From positions 1 through 64,000 of the forward strand of contig NZ_QAAA01000007.1 of NCBI RefSeq assembly GCF_003046545.1: DNA of 64,000 bases. Direction: 5' to 3'. Of the stretch, positions 43,506 to 54,560 are shown piece by piece. This DNA is from Rhodovulum imhoffii. GTDB taxonomy: Bacteria > Pseudomonadota > Alphaproteobacteria > Rhodobacterales > Rhodobacteraceae. Both the position numbers and the translations under genes were made by a program. The notes under the pieces were generated by a model. It was not told where the DNA came from. It saw nothing but the letters and a program-made list of their open reading frames with translations, and did no database searches. Within the stretch, counting starts at the first letter, position 1; each line of letters begins with the position of its first letter.

Positions 43506-44528
43506 ATGGGCTATAAGGTCGCTGTCGTGGGCGCCACGGGCAATGTGGGCCGCGAAATGCTGAACATCCTGGCCGAGCGCCAGTTCCCCGTGGATGAGAT
43601 TGCCGCGCTTGCCTCGCGCCGCAGCCTCGGCACCGAGGTCAGCTTTGGCGACACCACCCTGAAAACCCGGAATCTGGAGCAATTCGACTTCTCCGGCTGG
43701 GACATTGCGCTGTTCGCCATCGGCTCCGATGCCACGAAGGACTACGCGCCCAGGGCCGCCAAGGCGGGCTGCGTGGTGATCGACAACAGCTCGCTCTACC
43801 GCTACGATCCGGATGTGCCGCTGATCGTGCCCGAAGTGAACCCACAGGCGATTCACGGCTATGCGAACAAGAACATCATCGCCAACCCGAATTGCTCAAC
43901 CGCGCAGATGGTGGTGGCGCTCAAACCGCTGCACGACCGCGCCACGATCCGGCGCGTGGTCGTCAGCACCTACCAGTCTGTCTCCGGCAGCGGCAAGGAC
44001 GCGATCGACGAGCTTTGGGACCAGACCAAGGGCATGTACGTGCCCGGCCAGGAAGTCGCGCCCAGCGTCTATCCCAAGCAGATCGCGTTCAACGTGATCC
44101 CGCATATCGACGTGTTCCTCGACGACGGATCGACCAAGGAAGAATGGAAAATGGTCGCCGAGACGAAGAAGATCGTCGATCCTGCGATCAAGGTCACCGC
44201 CACCTGCGTGCGGGTCCCGGTTTTCGTCGGTCATTCCGAGGCGATCAACATCGAATTCGAGGAGTTCCTCGACGAAGACGAAGCCCGCGACATCCTGCGC
44301 GAAGCCCCCGGCATCATGGTGGTCGACAAGCGTGAGGATGGCGGCTACGTCACGCCAGTGGAATGCGTGGGCGATTTCGCCACCTTCATCAGCCGTATCC
44401 GGCAGGACAGCACCATCGAAAACGGCCTCAACCTGTGGTGCGTCAGCGACAATCTGCGCAAGGGCGCGGCGCTGAACGCGGTACAGATTGCAGAGCTTCT
44501 GGGCCGCGAGGTTCTGAAAAAGGGCTGA
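43506..44528 (+). CDS. asd: Aspartate-semialdehyde dehydrogenase
   Basis: 340 residues. NADP-binding start KVAVVGATGNVGREMLNIL, catalytic Cys in IIANPNCSTAQMVVAL, substrate-binding STYQSVSGSGKDAIDELWDQ, and RVPVFVGHSEAINIEFE with the active His. It converts aspartyl phosphate to the semialdehyde for Lys, Thr and Met synthesis. It is monocistronic, preceded by AAGGAGACCCTG and followed by a strong terminator. Confidence 0.97.
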   Translation: MGYKVAVVGATGNVGREMLNILAERQFPVDEIAALASRRSLGTEVSFGDTTLKTRNLEQFDFSGWDIALFAIGSDATKDYAPRAAKAGCVVIDNSSLYRYDPDVPLIVPEVNPQAIHGYANKNIIANPNCSTAQMVVALKPLHDRATIRRVVVSTYQSVSGSGKDAIDELWDQTKGMYVPGQEVAPSVYPKQIAFNVIPHIDVFLDDGSTKEEWKMVAETKKIVDPAIKVTATCVRVPVFVGHSEAINIEFEEFLDEDEARDILREAPGIMVVDKREDGGYVTPVECVGDFATFISRIRQDSTIENGLNLWCVSDNLRKGAALNAVQIAELLGREVLKKG

Positions 44529-44630: not shown

Positions 44631-46226
44631 ATGCGTAAATTGCCCTTTTTTCTTGCCCTGCTTCCCCTGCCCGCCCTGGCCGACGACATCGCACTGAACG
44701 GAACCGTCAGCGCCGTGACGCTTTATCCCCAAGGGGCAACGATTACCCGTGAGATGCCCTTTTCCATGCCGGCAGGCCAGCACCGGCTGATCCTGACGGA
44801 TCTGCCCCGCGACACACCCCTGGAACGGGTCCGCGTTTCGGTGACCGGCGCACGGATGGGCGGCGTGACAACGCGGGCGGATTTCGTCCCTCCCCGCGAT
44901 ATTACCGACCCCCCTGCCCTGGCGCAGGCCCGTGCCCGCGTCGAGGCCGCCGAGAACGCCCTGCGCGCCGCCCGCGCCGAGGTAGAGACGATCCGGCTCG
45001 AACAGACTGCGGCGCAGGCCCAGGTGAATTTTCTCGGATCCCTGTCCGGGACCGGGGCGGATCTGAGCGCCGATGCCGTGCGCAGCCTCGCCACAACCGT
45101 GGCGCAAGAGACCCTTTCCGCTCTGCGCGCCGCCCATGATGCCGCCCAGCGAGCCGGGGCCACCGAGCGCGCGCTCATACCGCTGGAGGAGGATCTGGAG
45201 AACGCCAAACAGGCCATGGCGGCATTGGTGCCCGACGAGGGTCCGCGCGCAATGCTGTCGGTGGCGGTCTCGGCGGAGACTCCGGCCCAAGGCATGCTGA
45301 GCGTCACCTACACCATCCCGGAGGCTGGCTGGACCCCGGTTTACGACCTGCACCTGACCCGCGCGACCGGCGCGCTGACGATCACCCGTGGTGCGTTCAT
45401 CGAACAGCACACCGGCGAAAACTGGAACGGAGTGACACTGACCCTTTCCACCACACGCCCCAGCGAACAGACCGCCCCAAGCGAGATCGTCCCGCTGTTG
45501 CGCCGTATCTTCGACCCGCAGCCGATCGCCCCCAAAGCCCGGCTGATGGCCGATGACGCCCCGATGGCGCTTGCCGAATCCGCCCCGATGACCGCGCAGG
45601 CGGATTTCGATGGGATCTCGGTTAGTTACGGGTATTCCGCGCCGGTCAACATCGCCACCGGGGCGGACCGTCTGCGGCTGATCCTTGGAGAGATTTCCCT
45701 GCCCGCAGCTCTTCGGGCAGAGGCCGCGCCACTGTGGGACAGCAGTGCCTTCCTGGTAGCACGGGCCAGGAACGACACGGGTGAACCGCTCCTGCCCACG
45801 GGGCATGCGATGTTTTACCTCGACGGGCGCTTCGTCGGCCAGCAGCCCCTGGACCTGATCCCGGCAGGGGCGGAGGCACAGTTTGCCTTCGGCCCGATCG
45901 ACGGGTTGCGCCTGACCCGAACCGTGATCCGCAACGAAGGCGACCGGGGCCTGATCTCCAGGTCGGAGGAATGGCAGGAAACGGTACGCCTGAAGGTGGA
46001 AAACCTTACCGGAGACAACTGGCCGCTGCGGGTCGTCGACCGTATCCCCTATGCCGAGCAGGAAGATCTGAAGATTACCTGGTCCGCCAGCCCCGAACCG
46101 GCGGAAACCGACCCGGACGGCAAGCAGGGGGTCATGGCGTGGACCTTCGACCTACAGGCGGGCGCTACCCGGCAAATCGAGCTGACCCACCGCATGAGCT
46201 GGCCGGAAGGCAAGATCCTGCGCTAG
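44631..46226 (+). CDS. DUF4139 (MuiA-like) secreted protein
   Basis: 531 residues with a signal peptide (MRKLPFFLALLPLPALA). The N-terminal DUF4140-type part (VSAVTLYPQGATITREMPF, HRLILTDLP) is followed by an Ala/Glu-rich coiled coil (about 95-195) and the DUF4139 domain (VTYTIPEAGWTPVYDLHLTR, ENWNGVTLTLST, NEGDRGLISRSEEW). The family is named for 'mucoidy inhibitor A' in one lineage but its molecular role is unknown. The 3' end overlaps the convergent PII-like gene by four bases. Confidence 0.83.
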   Translation: MRKLPFFLALLPLPALADDIALNGTVSAVTLYPQGATITREMPFSMPAGQHRLILTDLPRDTPLERVRVSVTGARMGGVTTRADFVPPRDITDPPALAQARARVEAAENALRAARAEVETIRLEQTAAQAQVNFLGSLSGTGADLSADAVRSLATTVAQETLSALRAAHDAAQRAGATERALIPLEEDLENAKQAMAALVPDEGPRAMLSVAVSAETPAQGMLSVTYTIPEAGWTPVYDLHLTRATGALTITRGAFIEQHTGENWNGVTLTLSTTRPSEQTAPSEIVPLLRRIFDPQPIAPKARLMADDAPMALAESAPMTAQADFDGISVSYGYSAPVNIATGADRLRLILGEISLPAALRAEAAPLWDSSAFLVARARNDTGEPLLPTGHAMFYLDGRFVGQQPLDLIPAGAEAQFAFGPIDGLRLTRTVIRNEGDRGLISRSEEWQETVRLKVENLTGDNWPLRVVDRIPYAEQEDLKITWSASPEPAETDPDGKQGVMAWTFDLQAGATRQIELTHRMSWPEGKILR

Positions 46227-46534
46227 AAACGGCCCGGGCGCAACACCTCGCAATCGGTGACGCAAACGACACCGAGGTGACGCTCCAGGACGGCGAACGC
46301 GGCCTCCAGCAGCGGCTGGAGGCGGTCCTCGGACAGGATGCATATCACGCAGACCATCCCGCCGGCCCGGCTGACCTGCCCCTCGCGGCTCCATTCCCCC
46401 GAGCGGCCATAGCCCCCCAGAACCGGCAGGATGGTGTAGCCCGCCACTCCGGCCTCTTTCAGCGCACGGACCAGGCGGCGTTCCATCGGGGCCTCTATGG
46501 TAATTTCGACACGTTTCGCCTCATGGGTCTGCAT
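46223..46534 (-). CDS. PII-like protein (SbtB-type) paired with SbtA-like carrier
   Basis: 103 residues with a ferredoxin-like PII pattern: KRVEITIEAPMERRLVRALK, the loop-forming GVAGYTILPVLGGYGRSGEW, VICILSEDRLQPLLEAAFAV and a C-terminal ECV-type strand (CVTDCEVLRPGRF). It lacks the uridylylated Tyr of GlnB and is shorter. It starts three bases after the SbtA-like gene, the arrangement of sbtA-sbtB in cyanobacteria, where SbtB binds adenyl nucleotides and gates bicarbonate uptake. That function is inferred for this protein. Confidence 0.78.
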   Translation of the reverse strand: MQTHEAKRVEITIEAPMERRLVRALKEAGVAGYTILPVLGGYGRSGEWSREGQVSRAGGMVCVICILSEDRLQPLLEAAFAVLERHLGVVCVTDCEVLRPGRF

Positions 46535-46537
46535 CGG

Positions 46538-47515
46538 TTATCCTCCTGTCGTCAGGCTGGCCAGGGCCACATAGGCCGGGATGCCAAGGGTCAGGTTGAA
46601 CGGGAAGGTTACGCCCAGCGAAAGCGTCAGGTACACAGACGGGTTCGCTTCCGGAAGGGCGACGCGCATGGCCGCCGGAACCGCGATATAGGACGCCGAC
46701 GCCGCCAGCGTCATCAGCAACACGACACCCCCGGTCGAAAGATTCAGCGCCAGCCCGGCAGCCAGCCCGAACAGACTGCCCACAAGCGGCATGAGAACGC
46801 CAAAGGCCAGAAGGCCGGGGGTAATCACCTTGCCGCTGGCACGCAGGTTACGCCCGGCGACAAGCCCCATGTCCAGCAGGAAAAGGCACAGTACCCCCTT
46901 GAACGGGGCCACGATGAAGCTGTCGATTTCCGCCAACCCCTCGGGCCCGGTGATCCAGCCGATTGCAAACGCCCCGACCAAAAGCACGATGGACCCGTTG
47001 AGCAGGATCTCCCGCCACAGCCCCGCGTCGATCCCGCCGCCACCGCCCTTGCGAACCACCAGCCAAAGTGCCGCGAGAATCGCCGGGGCCTCCATGATCG
47101 CGGCGACGGCAACCATGTAGCCTTCCGCCCCGATACCACGGCTGGCCAACACCGAACTGGCGGCAACGAAGGTCACGATGGAGATGGAGCCGTAATGCCC
47201 CGCCACCGCGCCCGCATCCACGACGCTCAGCCGTGTCATGGCCCGCAAAAGCGCGAAGGCCACGAAGGGCAGCAGCACGGACAGTACAATCCCTGTCCCC
47301 AAAGACAGAATCAGCGTGCCATCCAGGCCGTGGCCGGCCACGCTTGCCCCCCCTTTGAAACCGATGGCAAAAAGAAGATAGATCGACAGCGCCTTTGCCG
47401 CGGCCTCCGGCACGCTGAGATCGGAACGCGCCAGGGCGGCCGCACCACCCAAGGCAAAAGACAGGATGATCGGCGAAATCAGGTTTCCCGCCGCAAGATC
47501 GAGTATGTCGGACAC
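46538..47515 (-). CDS. sbtA: SbtA-family sodium-dependent bicarbonate transporter
   Basis: 325 residues with about ten membrane helices. SbtA/DUF897 features: LAAGNLISPIILSFALGGAA at the start, LSIYLLFAIGFKGGASVA, AGHYGSISIVTFVAASSVL, AIMEAPAILAALWLV and FLLDMGLVAGRNL. The repeated inverted topology and 'FKGG' motif are specific to this family. It sits between a beta-carbonic anhydrase gene (53 bases upstream) and a PII-like gene (3 bases downstream), strongly supporting inorganic-carbon uptake. Confidence 0.88.
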   Translation of the reverse strand: MSDILDLAAGNLISPIILSFALGGAAALARSDLSVPEAAAKALSIYLLFAIGFKGGASVAGHGLDGTLILSLGTGIVLSVLLPFVAFALLRAMTRLSVVDAGAVAGHYGSISIVTFVAASSVLASRGIGAEGYMVAVAAIMEAPAILAALWLVVRKGGGGGIDAGLWREILLNGSIVLLVGAFAIGWITGPEGLAEIDSFIVAPFKGVLCLFLLDMGLVAGRNLRASGKVITPGLLAFGVLMPLVGSLFGLAAGLALNLSTGGVVLLMTLAASASYIAVPAAMRVALPEANPSVYLTLSLGVTFPFNLTLGIPAYVALASLTTGG

Positions 47516-47568
47516 AAGACCCTCCCCGGTTTTCTAAGGACATAGAGCCGGGTGGCGCGTGTTTAATC

Positions 47569-48219
47569 CTAGACCGGCAAAAATGCCTTTTCCGTTTCGT
47601 CATAATACTCGACCGCACCGGCGCCGATGTCATTCCAAAGCGCATGCACGGTCAGGTCGCCCGCCTCCACGGCCTCACGCACGAAGGGGAAGGTCATCAG
47701 GTTGTTCAGAGAGGCCAGAACACCTTCCTTTTCCATCGCGCGCAGCCGCTCGGCTTCGTTCCCGATATGGGCAAGCCGCTCATAGGTCGGGCGCAGGATA
47801 TCCATCCAGCGGCCGATAAAGCTGCTTTTTTCCTCCAACTCCGGTGCTTTGCCCGAACACATGTCATGGCAGCCGCGCACACCGCCACAATTCGAATGCC
47901 CCAGAACCAGAATATGCGGCACCTTGAGTTGCGTCACCGCGTATTCCAGCGCCGCCGAGGTCCCGTGATGGTCGCCGTCCGGCGCGTGCGGGGGAACCAG
48001 GTTGGCGATATTGCGGTGTATGAAAAACTCCCCCTCGTCGGCACCAAAGATCGAGGTCACATGTACCCGCGAATCGCAGCACGAGATCACCATCGCCCGA
48101 GGGTGCTGGCCTTCCTGTGCCAGGCGGCGATACCACGCCTTGTTGTCGACGAAGGTCGTCGCCCGCCAGCCCTGATACCGCTGAACCAGATAGCCCGGCA
48201 AAGGTTTCGCATGCTGCAT
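47569..48219 (-). CDS. Beta-class carbonic anhydrase
   Basis: 216 residues. Zinc ligands and the Asp/Arg dyad are visible: MVISCCDSRVHVTSIFG (Cys, Asp-Arg), then LVLGHSNCGGVRGC (His and Cys). It interconverts CO2 and bicarbonate in the cytoplasm. I choose the internal ATG at 48219 (MQHAKPLPGYL) because GGAGG lies five bases before it. The upstream ATG at 48231 (MEAQ) has no such site, and a still longer frame to 48411 is non-homologous. It heads a minus-strand unit with the bicarbonate carrier and PII-like gene. Confidence 0.92.
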   Translation of the reverse strand: MQHAKPLPGYLVQRYQGWRATTFVDNKAWYRRLAQEGQHPRAMVISCCDSRVHVTSIFGADEGEFFIHRNIANLVPPHAPDGDHHGTSAALEYAVTQLKVPHILVLGHSNCGGVRGCHDMCSGKAPELEEKSSFIGRWMDILRPTYERLAHIGNEAERLRAMEKEGVLASLNNLMTFPFVREAVEAGDLTVHALWNDIGAGAVEYYDETEKAFLPV

Positions 48220-48409: not shown

Positions 48410-48731
48410 ATGGATGTCGAGCAGATTGCGGATCTCTATATCGGGCTGGGTGAGGCACGCGCAAACCGGCTGATCTCCGCAGCGATGCGGGTGTTGCACA
48501 CGGATATCCGCACACTGACGGACAGCCACCGGCCCGACCCGGAAGTCGCGTTGCGCGCCTCTGATCTTGCCGGGACGCTGGGTCTGACGGGGTTGTCGCG
48601 CCGCCCTCGCGGTGGAGCAAGCCGCCCGGTCGCAGGATACGCATGCGACCCGGGTCACCCGGCACCGGATGCAGGCGATCGCCCGGCGCACACAGGACAT
48701 CGTGAAGGCGCTTGACGAACGCACCGCCTGA
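48410..48731 (+). pseudogene. Frameshifted small protein of unknown function
   Basis: From the ATG at 48410 the frame reads MDVEQIADLYIGLGEARANR, then LISAAMRVLHTDIRTL and continues to about GLTGLSR near 48600. The protein-like reading then jumps to the +1 frame, AALAVEQAARSQDTHATRV, and MQAIARRTQDIVKALDERTA, stopping at 48731. The two halves make a coherent helical protein of about 106 residues if one extra base in the TCGCGCCGCC run is removed. This is either a genuine frameshift mutation or a sequencing error. No family was recognised; the all-helical pattern with an N-terminal His-containing helix is faintly like Hpt domains. Confidence 0.55.
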
Positions 48732-48794: not shown

Positions 48795-50177
48795 ATGCCC
48801 GCCAGTTTCGCACCCGCCACCGCACGAACCATCCCACTGCACGTGATCGAAGAGTCCGCTCTGGCGAGCTGGTGCGCCGCACTGCCCGATGCGCAGGCGG
48901 CATGGCTGAAGGCCACCGGGTTTTCCGCCGCCCTTGGGGAGGTTGCACTGCTGCCCGATACGCAAGGCGGGATTTCAGCGGCGGTCGCCGGGTTCGGGAC
49001 CGCGGCCAAACGGGCGCGCGGGCGGTTTCACATCGCCGCCGCGGCGCCAAAACTGCCGGAGGGCACTTACCGGATCGCCACCTTTCCAGAGGCGGGCGAC
49101 CCGGCGCAAGAAGCCCTTGGCTGGCTGCTGGCCGGCTACTGTTTTACCCGCTATCGCGACCGGGGGGGGCTGAAGGCCAGGCTGGTCGCCCCCGATGACG
49201 TCGACGCCGCGCGGCTGGAAACCATCGCTGCCGGGGAGTTCCTGACCCGTGACCTGATCAACACGCCCGCCGCCGATATGGGCCCCGATGCCCTGGAGGA
49301 GGCCACTGCCGGCCTTGCCGCCCGCCACGACGCGGCCTTTACCTCCATTCGGGGCGATGCCTTGCTGGACCGGAATTTTCCATTGATTCACGCCGTGGGC
49401 CGTGCCGGTCCGCAGGCCCCACGCCTTCTGGACCTGCGCTGGGGCAAGATGGGCCCGGCCCTGACACTGGTCGGCAAGGGGGTGTGTTTCGACACCGGCG
49501 GGCTGAACCTGAAACCCGCCGGCTCCATGGGTCTGATGAAAAAGGACATGGGCGGCGCGGCCACCGTGCTGGGGCTGGCAAGAACGATCATGACCCTGAA
49601 GTTGCCGCTGCGTTTGCGGGTGCTCGTCCCGGCGGTGGAAAACAGCGTCGCTTCCGCCTCCTTCCGCCCCCAAGACATCCTGACCGCCCGTAACGGCCTG
49701 ACGGTGGAAATCAACAATACCGATGCCGAAGGGCGCCTTGTGCTGGCCGACGCGCTGGCGCTGGCCGCCGAGGAAAGGCCGGACATGCTCGTCTCCATGG
49801 CAACGCTGACCGGGGCGGCACGGGTTGCCGTGGGGCCGGACATCGCCCCCTATTACACCGGCTCGGACAAGTGGGCGCATGTGCTGGGCCGCACCGCCCG
49901 GCAAGAGGCCGACCCGGTCTGGCGAATGCCGTTCCACACCCCCTACGAGACAATGATCGAACCCGGCATCGCCGATCTGGACAACGCTCCGGGCGGGGGA
50001 TTTGCCGGGTCCGTCACGGCAGCCCTATTCCTGCGCCGCTTCGTGGCCGAGGTTCCGTACATACATTTCGACATCTACGGCTGGCAGCCCGCTGACGCGC
50101 CCGCCCGGCCCAAAGGTGGCGTTGGCCAGGGCGCGCGCGCGCTGCTGGCCGCACTGCCCGAAATGCTGGAGATCTGA
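48795..50177 (+). CDS. Leucyl aminopeptidase-family (M17) metallopeptidase
   Basis: 460 residues. M17 signatures: NTPAADMGPDALEE, the metal-binding LVGKGVCFDTGGLNLKPAGS followed by MGLMKKDMGGAATVLG, and the family motif NTDAEGRLVLADALALAAEE, then VSMATLTGAARVAVG. The two-metal site removes N-terminal residues from peptides in the cytoplasm; enzymes form hexamers. The divergent N-terminal domain is typical. It ends two bases before the NlpC/P60 gene, so both are co-expressed and may process cell-wall or dietary peptides. Confidence 0.93.
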   Translation: MPASFAPATARTIPLHVIEESALASWCAALPDAQAAWLKATGFSAALGEVALLPDTQGGISAAVAGFGTAAKRARGRFHIAAAAPKLPEGTYRIATFPEAGDPAQEALGWLLAGYCFTRYRDRGGLKARLVAPDDVDAARLETIAAGEFLTRDLINTPAADMGPDALEEATAGLAARHDAAFTSIRGDALLDRNFPLIHAVGRAGPQAPRLLDLRWGKMGPALTLVGKGVCFDTGGLNLKPAGSMGLMKKDMGGAATVLGLARTIMTLKLPLRLRVLVPAVENSVASASFRPQDILTARNGLTVEINNTDAEGRLVLADALALAAEERPDMLVSMATLTGAARVAVGPDIAPYYTGSDKWAHVLGRTARQEADPVWRMPFHTPYETMIEPGIADLDNAPGGGFAGSVTAALFLRRFVAEVPYIHFDIYGWQPADAPARPKGGVGQGARALLAALPEMLEI

Positions 50178-50179
50178 AC

Positions 50180-51010
50180 ATGGACCCCCGCATCACCCCG
50201 GCCAATGCCCATGTCGCGGCCCGCAGCCTCGAGGGTCGGCTGCAGGCCCCCCGTTTCGTGGACCCGAAGGCCCGGCGCATCGGCCCGCCGGTCGCGGACC
50301 TGCTGCGCACCCCCGCAGGCCTACGGGACCGGCAATTGCTGCACGGAGAAAGTTTCGAGGTCCTGGAAATCCGCGACGGGTACGCCTTTGGACAGGCCGG
50401 GCGGGACGGTTATGTCGGCTACGTCACGGCCGAGGCGCTGACCGATCTGCCAGAGCCGACCCATATCGTCGCGGCGCGCGCGACCCACGCCTACCCCGCA
50501 CCCGACATGAAACGTCCCGAGCTTTGCGGTCTGAGCTTTGGAACCCGGCTGAGGGTGGTCTCCGCCTCGGGAAATTTCTTTGAAACGGCCGAGGGCTGGT
50601 TCGTGCCCAAACCGCATCTGCGCCCGGCCAATGCGCCTTTCAAGGACCCGGTGACCATTGCGCAACTGTTCTTTGGCACACCCTACTTATGGGGGGGGAA
50701 TTCAGCCTGGGGAATTGATTGCTCGGGGCTGGTCCAGGCGGCATATCTGGCCTGCGGCCTGCCCTGCCCCGGCGACAGCGACCAGCAGGAGGAAACCCTT
50801 GGCACCGCCCTGCCGCCGGACAGCCCGGTCCAGCGCGGCGATATCCTGTTCTGGAAAGGGCATGTGGCGCTGGCGGTGGACGATCGCGTGATGATCCATG
50901 CCAACGCACACCACATGGCTGTGGCTTATGAACCCGTTGCCGATGCCATCGCGCGGATCGTGGCACAAGGCGACGGGCCATTGACCCACCACAAGCGCCT
51001 GCTGCTTTAG
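50180..51010 (+). CDS. NlpC/P60-family cell-wall hydrolase with SH3-like domains
   Basis: 276 residues. An N-terminal SH3b-type pair (about 30-150: VLEIRDGYAFGQAGRDGYVG, LRVVSASGNFFETAEGWF) precedes an NlpC/P60 cysteine-peptidase domain with the catalytic Cys in WGIDCSGLVQAAYLACGL and His in KGHVALAVDD. The fold cleaves D-Glu-mDAP links in peptidoglycan stem peptides. No clear signal peptide is seen, so it may act in recycling rather than the periplasm. It overlaps the convergent NUDIX gene by four bases. Confidence 0.88.
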   Translation: MDPRITPANAHVAARSLEGRLQAPRFVDPKARRIGPPVADLLRTPAGLRDRQLLHGESFEVLEIRDGYAFGQAGRDGYVGYVTAEALTDLPEPTHIVAARATHAYPAPDMKRPELCGLSFGTRLRVVSASGNFFETAEGWFVPKPHLRPANAPFKDPVTIAQLFFGTPYLWGGNSAWGIDCSGLVQAAYLACGLPCPGDSDQQEETLGTALPPDSPVQRGDILFWKGHVALAVDDRVMIHANAHHMAVAYEPVADAIARIVAQGDGPLTHHKRLLL

Positions 51011-51553: not shown

Positions 51554-52084
51554 TCAGACGGCCGCATCTTCCCCGAAGATACTTTCCCGGTGCCGGGCCA
51601 GGTAAATCCGAAGCCAGGGGGTATAAGCTCCGGCGTTTTCCTCAACCTCGCGCATCAGATCCGGCAGGGCGATCCAGCGGGCATCCATCACCTCATCGGG
51701 GTTCAGGTCCAGCTTCAGGTCAGGGCCGGCCGGGGCGGTGAAGATATCCACGATCTCGTGCTCGACCAGGCCGTTGCCCACGTCGGCGCGGTATTCGACG
51801 CGGTCCCGGTGCGTCAGGGTCAACCCGGTGATCCCGAGTTCCTCCCGCAGGCGACGGGTGGCGCAGTCTTGCGCACTTTCGCCCCAGTCGGGGTGCGTAC
51901 AGCAGGTATTCGCCCAAAACCCCGGCGTGTGGTACTTGCCCAGCGCCCGGCGCTGGATGAGAACCTTGTCGCCCTCCATCACGAAGACCGAGATCGCCTT
52001 GTGCGGGAGACCCTTCCGATGGGCTTCCAGTTTCTCGACAGGGGTGAGTTCGCCATTGACCCAGGCCGGGATCATCACGCTCAT
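51554..52084 (-). CDS. idi: Isopentenyl-diphosphate delta-isomerase (type I)
   Basis: 176 residues. Type-I Idi motifs: the Cys in FWANTCCTHPDWGES and the Nudix-like metal site RRLREELGITGLT with EVEHEIVDIF-type acids (GLVEHEIVDIF). It converts isopentenyl to dimethylallyl diphosphate, feeding geranylgeranyl diphosphate for carotenoids and the phytyl tail of bacteriochlorophyll. It overlaps bchP by four bases (ATGA), as in other Rhodobacterales photosynthesis clusters. Confidence 0.95.
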   Translation of the reverse strand: MSVMIPAWVNGELTPVEKLEAHRKGLPHKAISVFVMEGDKVLIQRRALGKYHTPGFWANTCCTHPDWGESAQDCATRRLREELGITGLTLTHRDRVEYRADVGNGLVEHEIVDIFTAPAGPDLKLDLNPDEVMDARWIALPDLMREVEENAGAYTPWLRIYLARHRESIFGEDAAV

Positions 52085-53262
52085 GTCCGCAGCGGCGACA
52101 CGAGGCCCGTCAGGTGGGCGATGTTCTTGATCCCGATCCTGAGATGCGCCAGCGGGCGTTTCCTGACCAGCTTCTTGTTCATGTAAGCCTCGAAGGTCAG
52201 GCGTTGCACATCCACATCATGGCACAGCGAAACGAAACGCTCACGCCGCTCATCGGTGTGGTAATAGGAATCCTGCATCGCCTGCAGCGCGCGGAAGACA
52301 TTCTTGTGTTCCTTCATGAAGGTCCGGCGCGCCAGTTGCAGATCCTGCGCCCGGCCCGAAGCCAACGCGGCCTGTACCGCCTGCGCGGCCACGCGGCCAC
52401 CGTACATGGCATAGTAAATCCCTTCACCCGAAGATGGCGCCACAACCCCGGCAGCATCGCCGGCCAGCACCACGTCACGGTCGTTATCCCACTTGTCCAG
52501 CGGCCTGAGAGGGATCGGCGCGCCCTCCTTGCGCAGGGTTTCGCATTGGGCCAGACCGGCGCGCTGGCGCAGTTCCGCGGTGGCTTCCTTCAGGTCGAAA
52601 CCGTCCACACCCGTTCCCATTCCGACCGAGCAGGTCTTCCCGTGCGGAAATACCCAGCCATAGAAATCGGGGGAAATGCGGCCGTCATAGATTACATCGC
52701 AACGGTTGGGGGCATAGTTTCCAACCGCTTCGGGGGCGTCGATGATCTCATGATAGGCGATCACATAGGGGATCTTGTCTCCGCCGGGCACCTCGGCCCG
52801 CGCAACGTCGGAACGCGCCCCGTCGGCACCGATGACATATTGCGTTTGCAGATGCTTTTCCTCGCCGCTTTGCTTGTCGCGGAAAACGAGGGCGGTCCGG
52901 CCCTCATCCCGTTCGAGTCTCAGGAAGGTGCCGGTAAAGCGGTGCGCCCCGGCCTTCTCGGCCCGCGCGCGCAGAAAAGGGTCGAAATCCTTGCGATCCA
53001 CCATGCCGACAAAGCCGTTCTCGATCGGAATATCCACGTAGCGACCGGTGGGCGAAATCATCCGCGCGGTGTCGATCTTGGCCACAAGCTGTGCGTCGCG
53101 GATGTCGAAATCCTTCATCAGGCGCGGAGGAATGGCCCCGCCGCAGGGTTTGATCCGGCCTTCCCGGTCCAGAAGCGCCACGCGTTTGCCCACGCGGGCG
53201 AGATCCTCGGCTGCGGTGGCCCCGGCGGGTCCGCCCCCAACAACGACTACATCATAGCTCAT
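52081..53262 (-). CDS. bchP: Geranylgeranyl reductase BchP
   Basis: 393 residues. FAD-binding start MSYDVVVVGGGPAGATAAED, then GRIKPCGGAIPPRLMKDFDI, DGARSDVARAEVPGG and VVLAGDAAGVVAPSSGEGIY. It reduces three double bonds of the geranylgeranyl tail of bacteriochlorophyll to phytyl. The start at 53262 is preferred because GGGGAG lies eight bases upstream. ATG 53268 overlaps the pucC-like stop (TGATG) but is too close to that site. It is co-translated with idi. Confidence 0.95.
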   Translation of the reverse strand: MSYDVVVVGGGPAGATAAEDLARVGKRVALLDREGRIKPCGGAIPPRLMKDFDIRDAQLVAKIDTARMISPTGRYVDIPIENGFVGMVDRKDFDPFLRARAEKAGAHRFTGTFLRLERDEGRTALVFRDKQSGEEKHLQTQYVIGADGARSDVARAEVPGGDKIPYVIAYHEIIDAPEAVGNYAPNRCDVIYDGRISPDFYGWVFPHGKTCSVGMGTGVDGFDLKEATAELRQRAGLAQCETLRKEGAPIPLRPLDKWDNDRDVVLAGDAAGVVAPSSGEGIYYAMYGGRVAAQAVQAALASGRAQDLQLARRTFMKEHKNVFRALQAMQDSYYHTDERRERFVSLCHDVDVQRLTFEAYMNKKLVRKRPLAHLRIGIKNIAHLTGLVSPLRT

Positions 53263-53267
53263 TCTCA

Positions 53268-54560
53268 TCACTCCCCGGGAACCAGCCCCGCGTTTTCGGT
53301 TGTCGGCCGCTTGCCGTCCATGATCCGGATCGCCATCCACGCGGACAGGCAAAACAGGATCGCCTCTGCCAGGAACACCACGCCGAAGGCCGGTGCGTCA
53401 CTCATCACGGTCCTCAGGGTATCGGCGGAGGCGGCCCCCAAAAGGCCCCCAAAACCGGCGGCAATCGCCTGCGCCGCCCCCCAAAGACCCATGCGCGTAC
53501 CCTCACGGGCCTCCCGGCCTTCGCCAGCCAGCGCCATCATCGCCCCGATAGCCGCCACCGCGAACATGCCGTTGAAGACCCCCATCGTCACGACCGCAGG
53601 TATCAGCGGCAGGTGCGGCGCATAGATCCCCAGCGCCGCAACCCCCAGCAGCGCCGCCGCCGACCCAAAGCACCCCGCCACAACCCAGGCCCGCAACGAC
53701 CCGATGCGCAGCCCGGTGGACCCGATCCCCACCACGATCATGCCAAGGAAAACGCCCCCGTTCTGCGCCCCGGACAGCGAGGTGGATTGCCCCGGCGTGA
53801 ACCCGAACACCAGCCCGGAATAGGGTTCGAGGATCAGTTCCTGCATGAAATAGGCGGACATGGAAAGAAACACGAACAGGGTGAAGTTACGCGCCTTTCG
53901 TTCCCCCCAAACCTCCTTCAGCCCGTCCCGGAAGGGCATCTCATCGGGTTCACGGCGGACGATCACGCGACGTTCGATCCCCCATACCGCCAGAGAGGTC
54001 AGGATCACCGCGCCGATCGTGACGGTTGCGACAATCTCCATCAGCAACCGGGGCGAATACGGATCCAGGAACATCCCGACAGTCCCCGCGGTAACGGCAA
54101 TACCCGCGATCATCATCAGCCAGGTTATGGTGGCCGCCGCCCCCCGGCGCTCCGGTGCGGTGGCTGTCGCCAGAAGCGCCAGAAGCGAAGTCCCCGACGC
54201 CCCGACCCCAAGCCCGATCAGCGTATAGGCCAGAACCGACAGGAACAGGCCCGGCCAGAAGTGATCGGCCATCACCAGCACGCCGGATGCCGCTGCGAAC
54301 CCGCCCAGAGCCAGAACGGCCATGCCCCCGACGATGAACCGCGTCCGCCGCCCGCCGGTATCCGACAGAAACCCCCAGCTTGGGCGCGAAATCTGGATAC
54401 CGTAATGCAGTGCCACCAGCATCCCCGGCAGAACAGCGGGCAGGGCCAGTTCCACCACCATCAGGCGGTTCAGCGTCGAGGTCGTAAGCACCACGATCGC
54501 GCCCAAGCACATCTGCACCAGGCCGAGACGAACGATCTGGAGCCAGTTCAGCGTCATCAC
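53268..54560 (-). CDS. PucC/Bch2-family MFS protein of the photosynthesis cluster
   Basis: 430 residues, about 12 membrane helices. Members of this BCD family (PucC, LhaA, 'Bch2') help insert or deliver bacteriochlorophyll into light-harvesting complexes. Typical motifs are RLMVVELALPAVLPGMLVAL, HYGIQISRPSWGFLSDTGGRR and LIGLGVGASGTSLLALLATA. Position between bchG and bchP is standard in Rhodobacterales. It overlaps bchG and touches bchP. Confidence 0.9.
   Translation of the reverse strand: MMTLNWLQIVRLGLVQMCLGAIVVLTTSTLNRLMVVELALPAVLPGMLVALHYGIQISRPSWGFLSDTGGRRTRFIVGGMAVLALGGFAAASGVLVMADHFWPGLFLSVLAYTLIGLGVGASGTSLLALLATATAPERRGAAATITWLMMIAGIAVTAGTVGMFLDPYSPRLLMEIVATVTIGAVILTSLAVWGIERRVIVRREPDEMPFRDGLKEVWGERKARNFTLFVFLSMSAYFMQELILEPYSGLVFGFTPGQSTSLSGAQNGGVFLGMIVVGIGSTGLRIGSLRAWVVAGCFGSAAALLGVAALGIYAPHLPLIPAVVTMGVFNGMFAVAAIGAMMALAGEGREAREGTRMGLWGAAQAIAAGFGGLLGAASADTLRTVMSDAPAFGVVFLAEAILFCLSAWMAIRIMDGKRPTTENAGLVPGE

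Follow-up and report, generated by a model that had tools for sequence, protein, structure and literature searches.

The closest described counterparts of the locus considered here are the SbtA/SbtB systems of Synechocystis and Cyanobium and the CPII protein of Thiomonas intermedia K12. Docking and mutants place Ser114, Tyr140, Ser324 and Ser327 of Synechocystis SbtA in contact with HCO3-, and an alanine at any one of the four leaves 10-40% of the activity (PMC8352866). The T-loop of AMP-bound SbtB inserts into SbtA (PMC8352866; likewise a passage of PMC10117731). CPII is a carboxysome-associated PII-like protein by the title of its paper (PMC5048545), and its structures (PDB 5d4l, 5d4n-5d4p, 5drk and 5ds7) include, by their PDB titles, complexes with ADP, AMP and bicarbonate (the last in 5d4o and 5d4p). 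SbtA-family carriers have been studied in autotrophic Proteobacteria (part of PMC10880623), and an SBT-family permease occurs in genomes of SAR11 IIIa and LD12, which are not known to grow on inorganic carbon (a passage of PMC10030771). Here we examine, in the first 64,000 nucleotides of contig NZ_QAAA01000007.1 of Rhodovulum imhoffii (the window), a trio of genes for a beta-carbonic anhydrase (CA), an SbtA-like carrier and a PII-like protein. We read the trio, with a rough probability of 0.6, as a CPII-gated, sodium-coupled bicarbonate uptake unit behind a housekeeping CA. Among relatives, the carrier follows the photosynthetic reaction centre and not RuBisCO.

The carrier and its PII-like partner

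The trio and a signal within it are as follows.

47569..48219, minus strand: beta-CA, 216 amino acids (Pfam Pro_CA and zinc motif)
46538..47515, minus strand: putative sodium/bicarbonate carrier of the Sbt_1 family (SbtA-like), 325 amino acids, GTG start (Pfam and predicted model)
46223..46534, minus strand: CPII-like PII protein, 103 amino acids (Pfam P-II and nearest structures)
46532..46547, minus strand: Shine-Dalgarno-like AGGAGGA in the last codons of the carrier, with the carrier stop and the PII start (sequence)

An earlier reading, made from the letters of the window without database searches (the sequence-only reading), had named these three genes in this order, and the reading frames and their Pfam matches, all above cut-off, bear it out. 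It had also proposed a regulated bicarbonate-handling unit modelled on SbtA/SbtB, with which the locus shares the carrier family, the fold and a PII-fold partner gene adjoining the carrier. The families and predicted folds of the carrier and the PII-like protein favour such a unit; the evidence did not support modelling the regulator on SbtB.

The carrier matches Sbt_1 at 369 bits (cut-off 27) over profile positions 1-307 of 308 and is the only Sbt_1 match in the genome; NCBIfam holds no model for it. Its AlphaFold model has a predicted local distance difference test score (pLDDT) of 88, and the five best structural matches are all SbtA chains, with TMq of 0.85-0.91 (nearest 7egl and 8zor, 0.86-0.91). 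The predicted pocket is conserved within the clade and is unlike that of cyanobacterial SbtA at two of the four positions. Mapped via PDB alignments, the equivalents of Ser114, Tyr140, Ser324 and Ser327 are Ser112, Ala138, Ser275 and Ala278, each invariant in 41/41 relatives, so that two serines are common to this carrier and Synechocystis SbtA and the other two positions are alanine. Given what alanine costs the cyanobacterial protein, these replacements are the main doubt about the substrate or affinity of the carrier. They would suit a carrier of another small anion, such as a short carboxylate, beside a CPII-like protein that senses the energy state only, and the next nearest fold to the model is indeed that of the bile-acid and pantoate symporters. 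Among the rows listed, however, those symporters reach a TMq of at most 0.65, well below the SbtA chains. The serines equivalent to Ser114 and Ser324 are kept in all 41 relatives, a beta-CA neighbour recurs in two gene orders, and CPII, the nearest relative of the PII-like protein, has been solved with bicarbonate bound. We consider another anion unlikely. If the pocket changes do alter substrate or affinity, the SbtA site would exist in a second form in this clade.

The PII-like protein matches Pfam P-II at 52 bits (cut-off 25) and also DUF190 at 26.6 (cut-off 23.4); NCBIfam gave nothing beyond one match below cut-off, and two further P-II matches in the genome both score above this one. Its nearest solved sequence is CPII (E 3e-10 by single sequence, 1.5e-14 by profile; 32% identity). 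The profile E values of the other matches are 1.4e-6 for the PII-like protein of Thermus, 2e-6 for Cyanobium SbtB and 9e-4 for Synechocystis SbtB. Foldseek agrees: with an AlphaFold model of pLDDT 86.5, ranks 1-14 are all CPII (TMq 0.84), whereas SbtB reaches a TMq of 0.63-0.77. VIA-align scores ligand-bound CPII at Z 13.4-14.0 and apo CPII at 12.4; the Thermus protein reaches 13.5, and the best entries of SbtB and of canonical PII stand at 12.5. Because this ranks CPII level with the Thermus protein, the fold alone leaves the kinship unsettled and is less decisive than sequence. SbtB as the regulator's family was rejected, being weaker than CPII both by sequence and by Foldseek, and the SbtB-type C-terminal CGPxGC R-loop is present in 0/76 relatives (the protein itself ends in RPGRF). 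That loop is missing from Cyanobium SbtB as well, according to a passage of PMC10991534. Six residues, P37, G41, G43, G46, W48 and R99, are invariant in the 45 aligned sequences, the first five forming the motif P-x3-G-x-G-x2-G-x-W, in which CPII has G at the P position and Y at the W position. We call the protein CPII-like and not a carboxysomal CPII, since the genome is without a match to a BMC shell protein.

Gene neighbourhood and the carbonic anhydrase island

The pairing of carrier and PII-like gene is more than chance, for it is repeated in 77 of the 80 named loci, which are the best of at least 448 confirmed carrier relatives and not a random sample. The locus is also present in the culturable relative Rhodovulum bhavnagarense DSM 24766 (L002). 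Within the Rhodobacteraceae 58/64 loci (a count that leaves out L127, a weak carrier match) have the PII-like gene no more than 2.5 kb from the carrier and in the same orientation, with 4-52 bp, mostly 6-7, between the aligned ends. Carrier relatives without an adjoining PII-like gene are L118, L120, L121, L123, L125 and L126, and L057, L064 and L079. In the window the gap between carrier and PII-like gene is 3 bp and that between CA and carrier 53 bp. The AGGAGGA inside the carrier end makes translational coupling of the PII gene to the carrier probable, and the gene layout makes co-transcription of the trio likely. A scan for terminator-like sites found 3 against 3.1 in shuffled sequence, and neither intergenic gap of the trio holds one.

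The CA matches Pro_CA at 154 bits (cut-off 25.7), carries the zinc motif (CCDSR at 47-51, HSNC at 108-111) and is the single Pro_CA match in the whole genome, in a search that covered the beta class. Its reading frame is also open from an in-frame ATG at 48411, giving a longer alternative. Among CA relatives adjoining Sbt, the CxDSR and HxxC motif is kept in 38/39, the exception being a call of a 129-amino-acid open reading frame (ORF). A CA lies within 3 kb of the carrier in 48/64 family loci (47 on the same strand). Of the 80 named loci, 36 have a same-strand beta-CA within 4.5 kb (26 upstream, 10 downstream), 2 have one on the opposite strand, and 42, of which 8 are near a contig end, have none within 4.5 kb. 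The ten downstream CAs, found in Roseibium, Thalassospira and others, are 36-49% identical to that of the window. Antisense ORFs and island genes set aside, no other neighbour is equally recurrent in the 80 loci, and a search of the CA-free loci for a further conserved neighbour found none. That a CA adjoins the carrier-PII pair in two gene orders argues for a working link.

The CA also belongs to a larger conserved island, whose other members in the window are these.

50180-51010, plus strand: NlpC/P60 protein (Pfam; order shared by the majority of family loci, whether they have the carrier or not)
48795-50177, plus strand: M17 aminopeptidase (LAP; Pfam; same shared order)
44631-46226, plus strand: DUF4139 protein, convergent with the trio (Pfam; recurring position)
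43506-44528, plus strand: probable asd, convergent with the trio (recurring position)

We take 43506-44528 to be asd from its sequence. Most of 181 Rhodobacteraceae loci run NlpC, LAP, a gap of ~600 bp, CA, then the carrier-PII pair present or absent, sometimes DUF4139, and asd; the ~600 bp between CA and aminopeptidase are maintained in most family loci, carrier or no carrier. LAP-CA-asd is retained in 80/116 carrier-free loci, 16 of the 116 being CA regions of genomes whose carrier lies elsewhere. In these carrier-free LAP-CA-asd loci the gap from CA to asd, which may contain other genes, runs from 39 bp upward (11 below 150 bp, median 1045 bp). In a survey of 295 Rhodobacteraceae genomes, one per genus, 257 had a CA relative with an E value no worse than 1e-20, and Sbt_1 was above cut-off in only 92; the CA is therefore a housekeeping gene, and the carrier-PII pair, which comes and goes, is the variable unit of the island. 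The trio that the sequence-only reading had described as an operon is real in the window, while its CA is part of a family-wide island that often has no carrier. For the same reason the CA was rejected as the founding member of the operon, being present family-wide irrespective of the carrier.

Two further features touch the island. A 101-amino-acid ORF without a Pfam match lies at 48410-48715 on the plus strand, between CA and aminopeptidase. In L129 (G126:C7) the carrier-PII pair is flipped between CA and asd and is hence convergent with CA.

The trio was also said to stand beside a photosynthesis cluster. This is true of the window.

51554-53268: isopentenyl-diphosphate isomerase and bchP, near the trio

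Genes of the PUCC and UbiA families come after bchP (Pfam), and the contig also carries the reaction-centre genes at C7:75975-77650, ~28 kb away from the trio. The arrangement is not conserved: bchP was found near the carrier in 0/80 loci (at most 8 kb to either side, less in some that run into a contig end), and the position of the bch genes was therefore rejected as a sign of a functional link with the trio. Separately, carrier and reaction-centre genes lie ~30-100 kb apart on one contig in several genomes (G000, G148, G171 and G123).

Co-distribution with reaction centres and RuBisCO

In the literature we found only single-lineage mentions of Sbt and no test of its distribution against reaction centres, in a search whose coverage mostly excluded subscription journals. 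One such mention concerns Candidatus Phycosocius, an aerobic anoxygenic phototroph without RuBisCO, for whose Sbt carrier a role in anaplerotic CO2 assimilation was proposed; the passage names neither a PII partner nor a CA, and 'carbonic anhydrase' occurs nowhere in the paper's text (PMC10008586). We scored the 295 family genomes for the carrier (at least 310 bits), RuBisCO (at least 380 bits) and the reaction centre (called by Photo_RC alone). These cut-offs were set after gaps in the score lists had been seen, and the score lists and completeness exceptions were transcribed by hand into the statistics. Carrier-negative genomes include 7 with only a lower-scoring paralogue, 4 with fragments and 2 with matches below cut-off.

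On this scoring 81 genomes have the carrier, 122 the reaction centre and 50 RuBisCO. The reaction centre occurs in 58/81 carrier genomes and 64/214 others (58 with both, 23 with the carrier alone, 64 with the reaction centre alone and 150 with neither; odds ratio (OR) 5.9, p 1.6e-10), and the association persists when completeness of at least 90% and contamination of at most 5% are required (49, 19, 52 and 140 in the same order; OR 6.9). RuBisCO shows no positive association with the carrier, occurring in 8/81 carrier genomes and 42/214 others (both 8, carrier only 73, RuBisCO only 42, neither 172; OR 0.45, p 0.055), and it is absent from 108/122 reaction-centre genomes. A RuBisCO-linked module was accordingly rejected as a clade-wide rule. 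Where the carrier adjoins CA, 40/48 genomes have the reaction centre, against 18/33 of the other carrier genomes, some of which had only their CA region examined.

The link also holds on a tree of three island genes (LAP, CA and asd; median support 0.90). The tree was built for 161 of 181 genomes, a set that joins the 81 carrier-positive genomes with 100 lacking the carrier, the latter chosen among the listed CA matches of higher similarity, and that is therefore not random. Here both features occur in 45 genomes, the carrier only in 18, the reaction centre only in 24 and neither in 74. Pagel's test favours a dependent model for carrier and reaction centre (likelihood ratio (LR) 32.8, p 1.3e-6) and finds no dependence between RuBisCO and reaction centre (LR 2.5, p 0.64); carrier and RuBisCO come out as weakly dependent (LR 10.8, p 0.03), with extreme rates that we do not interpret. 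Both features change often on the tree, with 43 parsimony changes for the carrier against 50 when shuffled and 38 against 52 for the reaction centre.

A class-wide replication sample was drawn after the family result and comprised 371 genomes (376 less 5 of the same family, as read from the listing). Counting all 69 Sbt matches outside the family, fragments included, 16/23 reaction-centre genomes have Sbt against 53/348 others (OR 12.7, p 3.6e-8). With carriers of at least 310 bits only, the figures are 13/23 against 45/348 (OR 8.8), and with high-quality genomes only, 14/21 against 47/280 (OR 9.9). Of 17 families having a reaction-centre genome, 14 include one that also has Sbt. A P-II match adjoins Sbt in 15/16 of the Sbt-positive phototrophs, and 15/16 are without a RuBisCO match of 380 bits; RuBisCO at that level occurs in 2/23 reaction-centre genomes, one of them Sbt-positive. 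Bicarbonate uptake that is linked to phototrophy and independent of RuBisCO is thus supported at clade level by co-distribution, and the sampled carriers, unlike cyanobacterial SbtA/SbtB, sit mostly in genomes without RuBisCO.

The association is nevertheless correlational, and its strongest rival is a shared habitat: waters that are sunlit, full of phytoplankton or alkaline contain little CO2 and much HCO3-, and may select phototrophy and bicarbonate uptake separately. The SAR11 IIIa and LD12 permease would fit such selection. So would the carriers found apart from phototrophy, which also weigh against a link to light: 23/81 carrier genomes of the family lack a reaction centre, and in 20 of those RuBisCO of 380 bits is missing too; outside the family 53/69 Sbt genomes are without a reaction centre. 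Phototrophs tend to carry Sbt, yet Sbt is not confined to phototrophs. Set against habitat alone, the association holds at one genome per genus, on the tree and again outside the family. We regard habitat as a serious possibility, if one with somewhat less than an even chance. The enrichment of the carrier-PII pair in alphaproteobacterial anoxygenic phototrophs suggests demand for carboxylation in the light, or the supply of energy, as one selective factor.

Of the 295 family genomes, 28 have another Sbt paralogue that scores lower (220-310 bits; its open frames are mostly 350-410 amino acids long; for example G289:C1:29505-30509 and G266:C7:203687-204694), and 27 of the 28 have reaction-centre genes. 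The paralogue has no adjoining P-II match in 15 of the 19 among these genomes that were searched for P-II.

Carbon fixation and the role of the trio

The R. imhoffii genome has two genes for the RuBisCO large subunit (L083 and L084, at G000:C4:22561 and G000:C17:1669), both on contigs other than that of the trio. The first is nearest 1svd and 7smk (944 bits), with 6uew, a fusion with a CsoS2 peptide, next; the second is nearest 4lf1 (857 bits), and its matches include a chain named Form II. We take the first to be of form IA and 1svd to be a carboxysomal enzyme. A search for BMC shell proteins at E 0.001 gave 0 matches in this genome and was positive in two control genomes, so that a RuBisCO like 1svd, 7smk and 6uew occurs here without a shell match. 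The trio is not a carboxysomal CO2-concentrating mechanism.

With two RuBisCO genes and no shell match, an anaplerotic role cannot be argued from this genome alone. The sequence-only reading had proposed such a role, linked to light; the statistical link to phototrophy, which does not follow RuBisCO, agrees with it across the clade, and anaplerotic fixation is not the obvious sink in this species. The gene set of R. imhoffii keeps supply of the Calvin cycle a live reading, though the clade-wide pattern points elsewhere: CA would dehydrate imported HCO3- for RuBisCO outside carboxysomes, during photo- or chemolithoautotrophy. The carriers studied in autotrophic Proteobacteria lend this precedent, and the location of both RuBisCO genes away from the trio, together with the failure of the carrier to follow RuBisCO across the family, speaks against it. 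As the main role of the trio here it is possible, and we would hold it only tentatively.

For the uptake unit itself, we propose that the carrier would bring in HCO3- together with Na+. A CPII-like trimer on its cytoplasmic face may open and shut it by adenylate state, perhaps also by bicarbonate, and CA would equilibrate HCO3- and CO2 for whichever carboxylase operates. That enzyme may be RuBisCO in this species and, in many RuBisCO-free relatives, one of the PEP, pyruvate or acetyl-CoA carboxylases. For gating of this kind the precedent in print is the insertion of the AMP-bound SbtB T-loop into SbtA. Light lifts the energy charge of a phototroph and could thereby release the carrier. Besides the alanines of the pocket, several points count against this scheme. 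No PII-like neighbour accompanies 6/64 family carriers and 3/80 named ones. A promoter scan at the trio found 0 sites against 0.5 in shuffled sequence. A cytoplasmic CA near a HCO3- importer risks a leak of CO2, as part of PMC10880623 argues for autotrophs.

Aerobic anoxygenic phototrophs assimilate CO2 with no Calvin cycle, and little was found in the literature on how inorganic carbon reaches their carboxylases. In Roseobacter denitrificans anaplerotic CO2 fixation supplies 10-15% of protein carbon, according to a passage of PMC2749216. Anoxygenic phototrophic Alphaproteobacteria, most of which have no RuBisCO, may in many cases retain a CPII-gated importer of Na+ and HCO3- through which energy from light drives carboxylation outside the Calvin cycle, as the uptake arm of anaplerotic CO2 fixation. 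This broader proposal is a doubtful one, and we lowered our estimate of it slightly in view of the non-phototrophic majority of Sbt genomes beyond the family.

In summary, the carrier-PII pair described here tracks the reaction centre and not RuBisCO, and it would extend SbtA-type regulation past carboxysome-based CO2 concentration. It offers a concrete, deletable gene pair with which to probe the supply of inorganic carbon in aerobic anoxygenic phototrophs.

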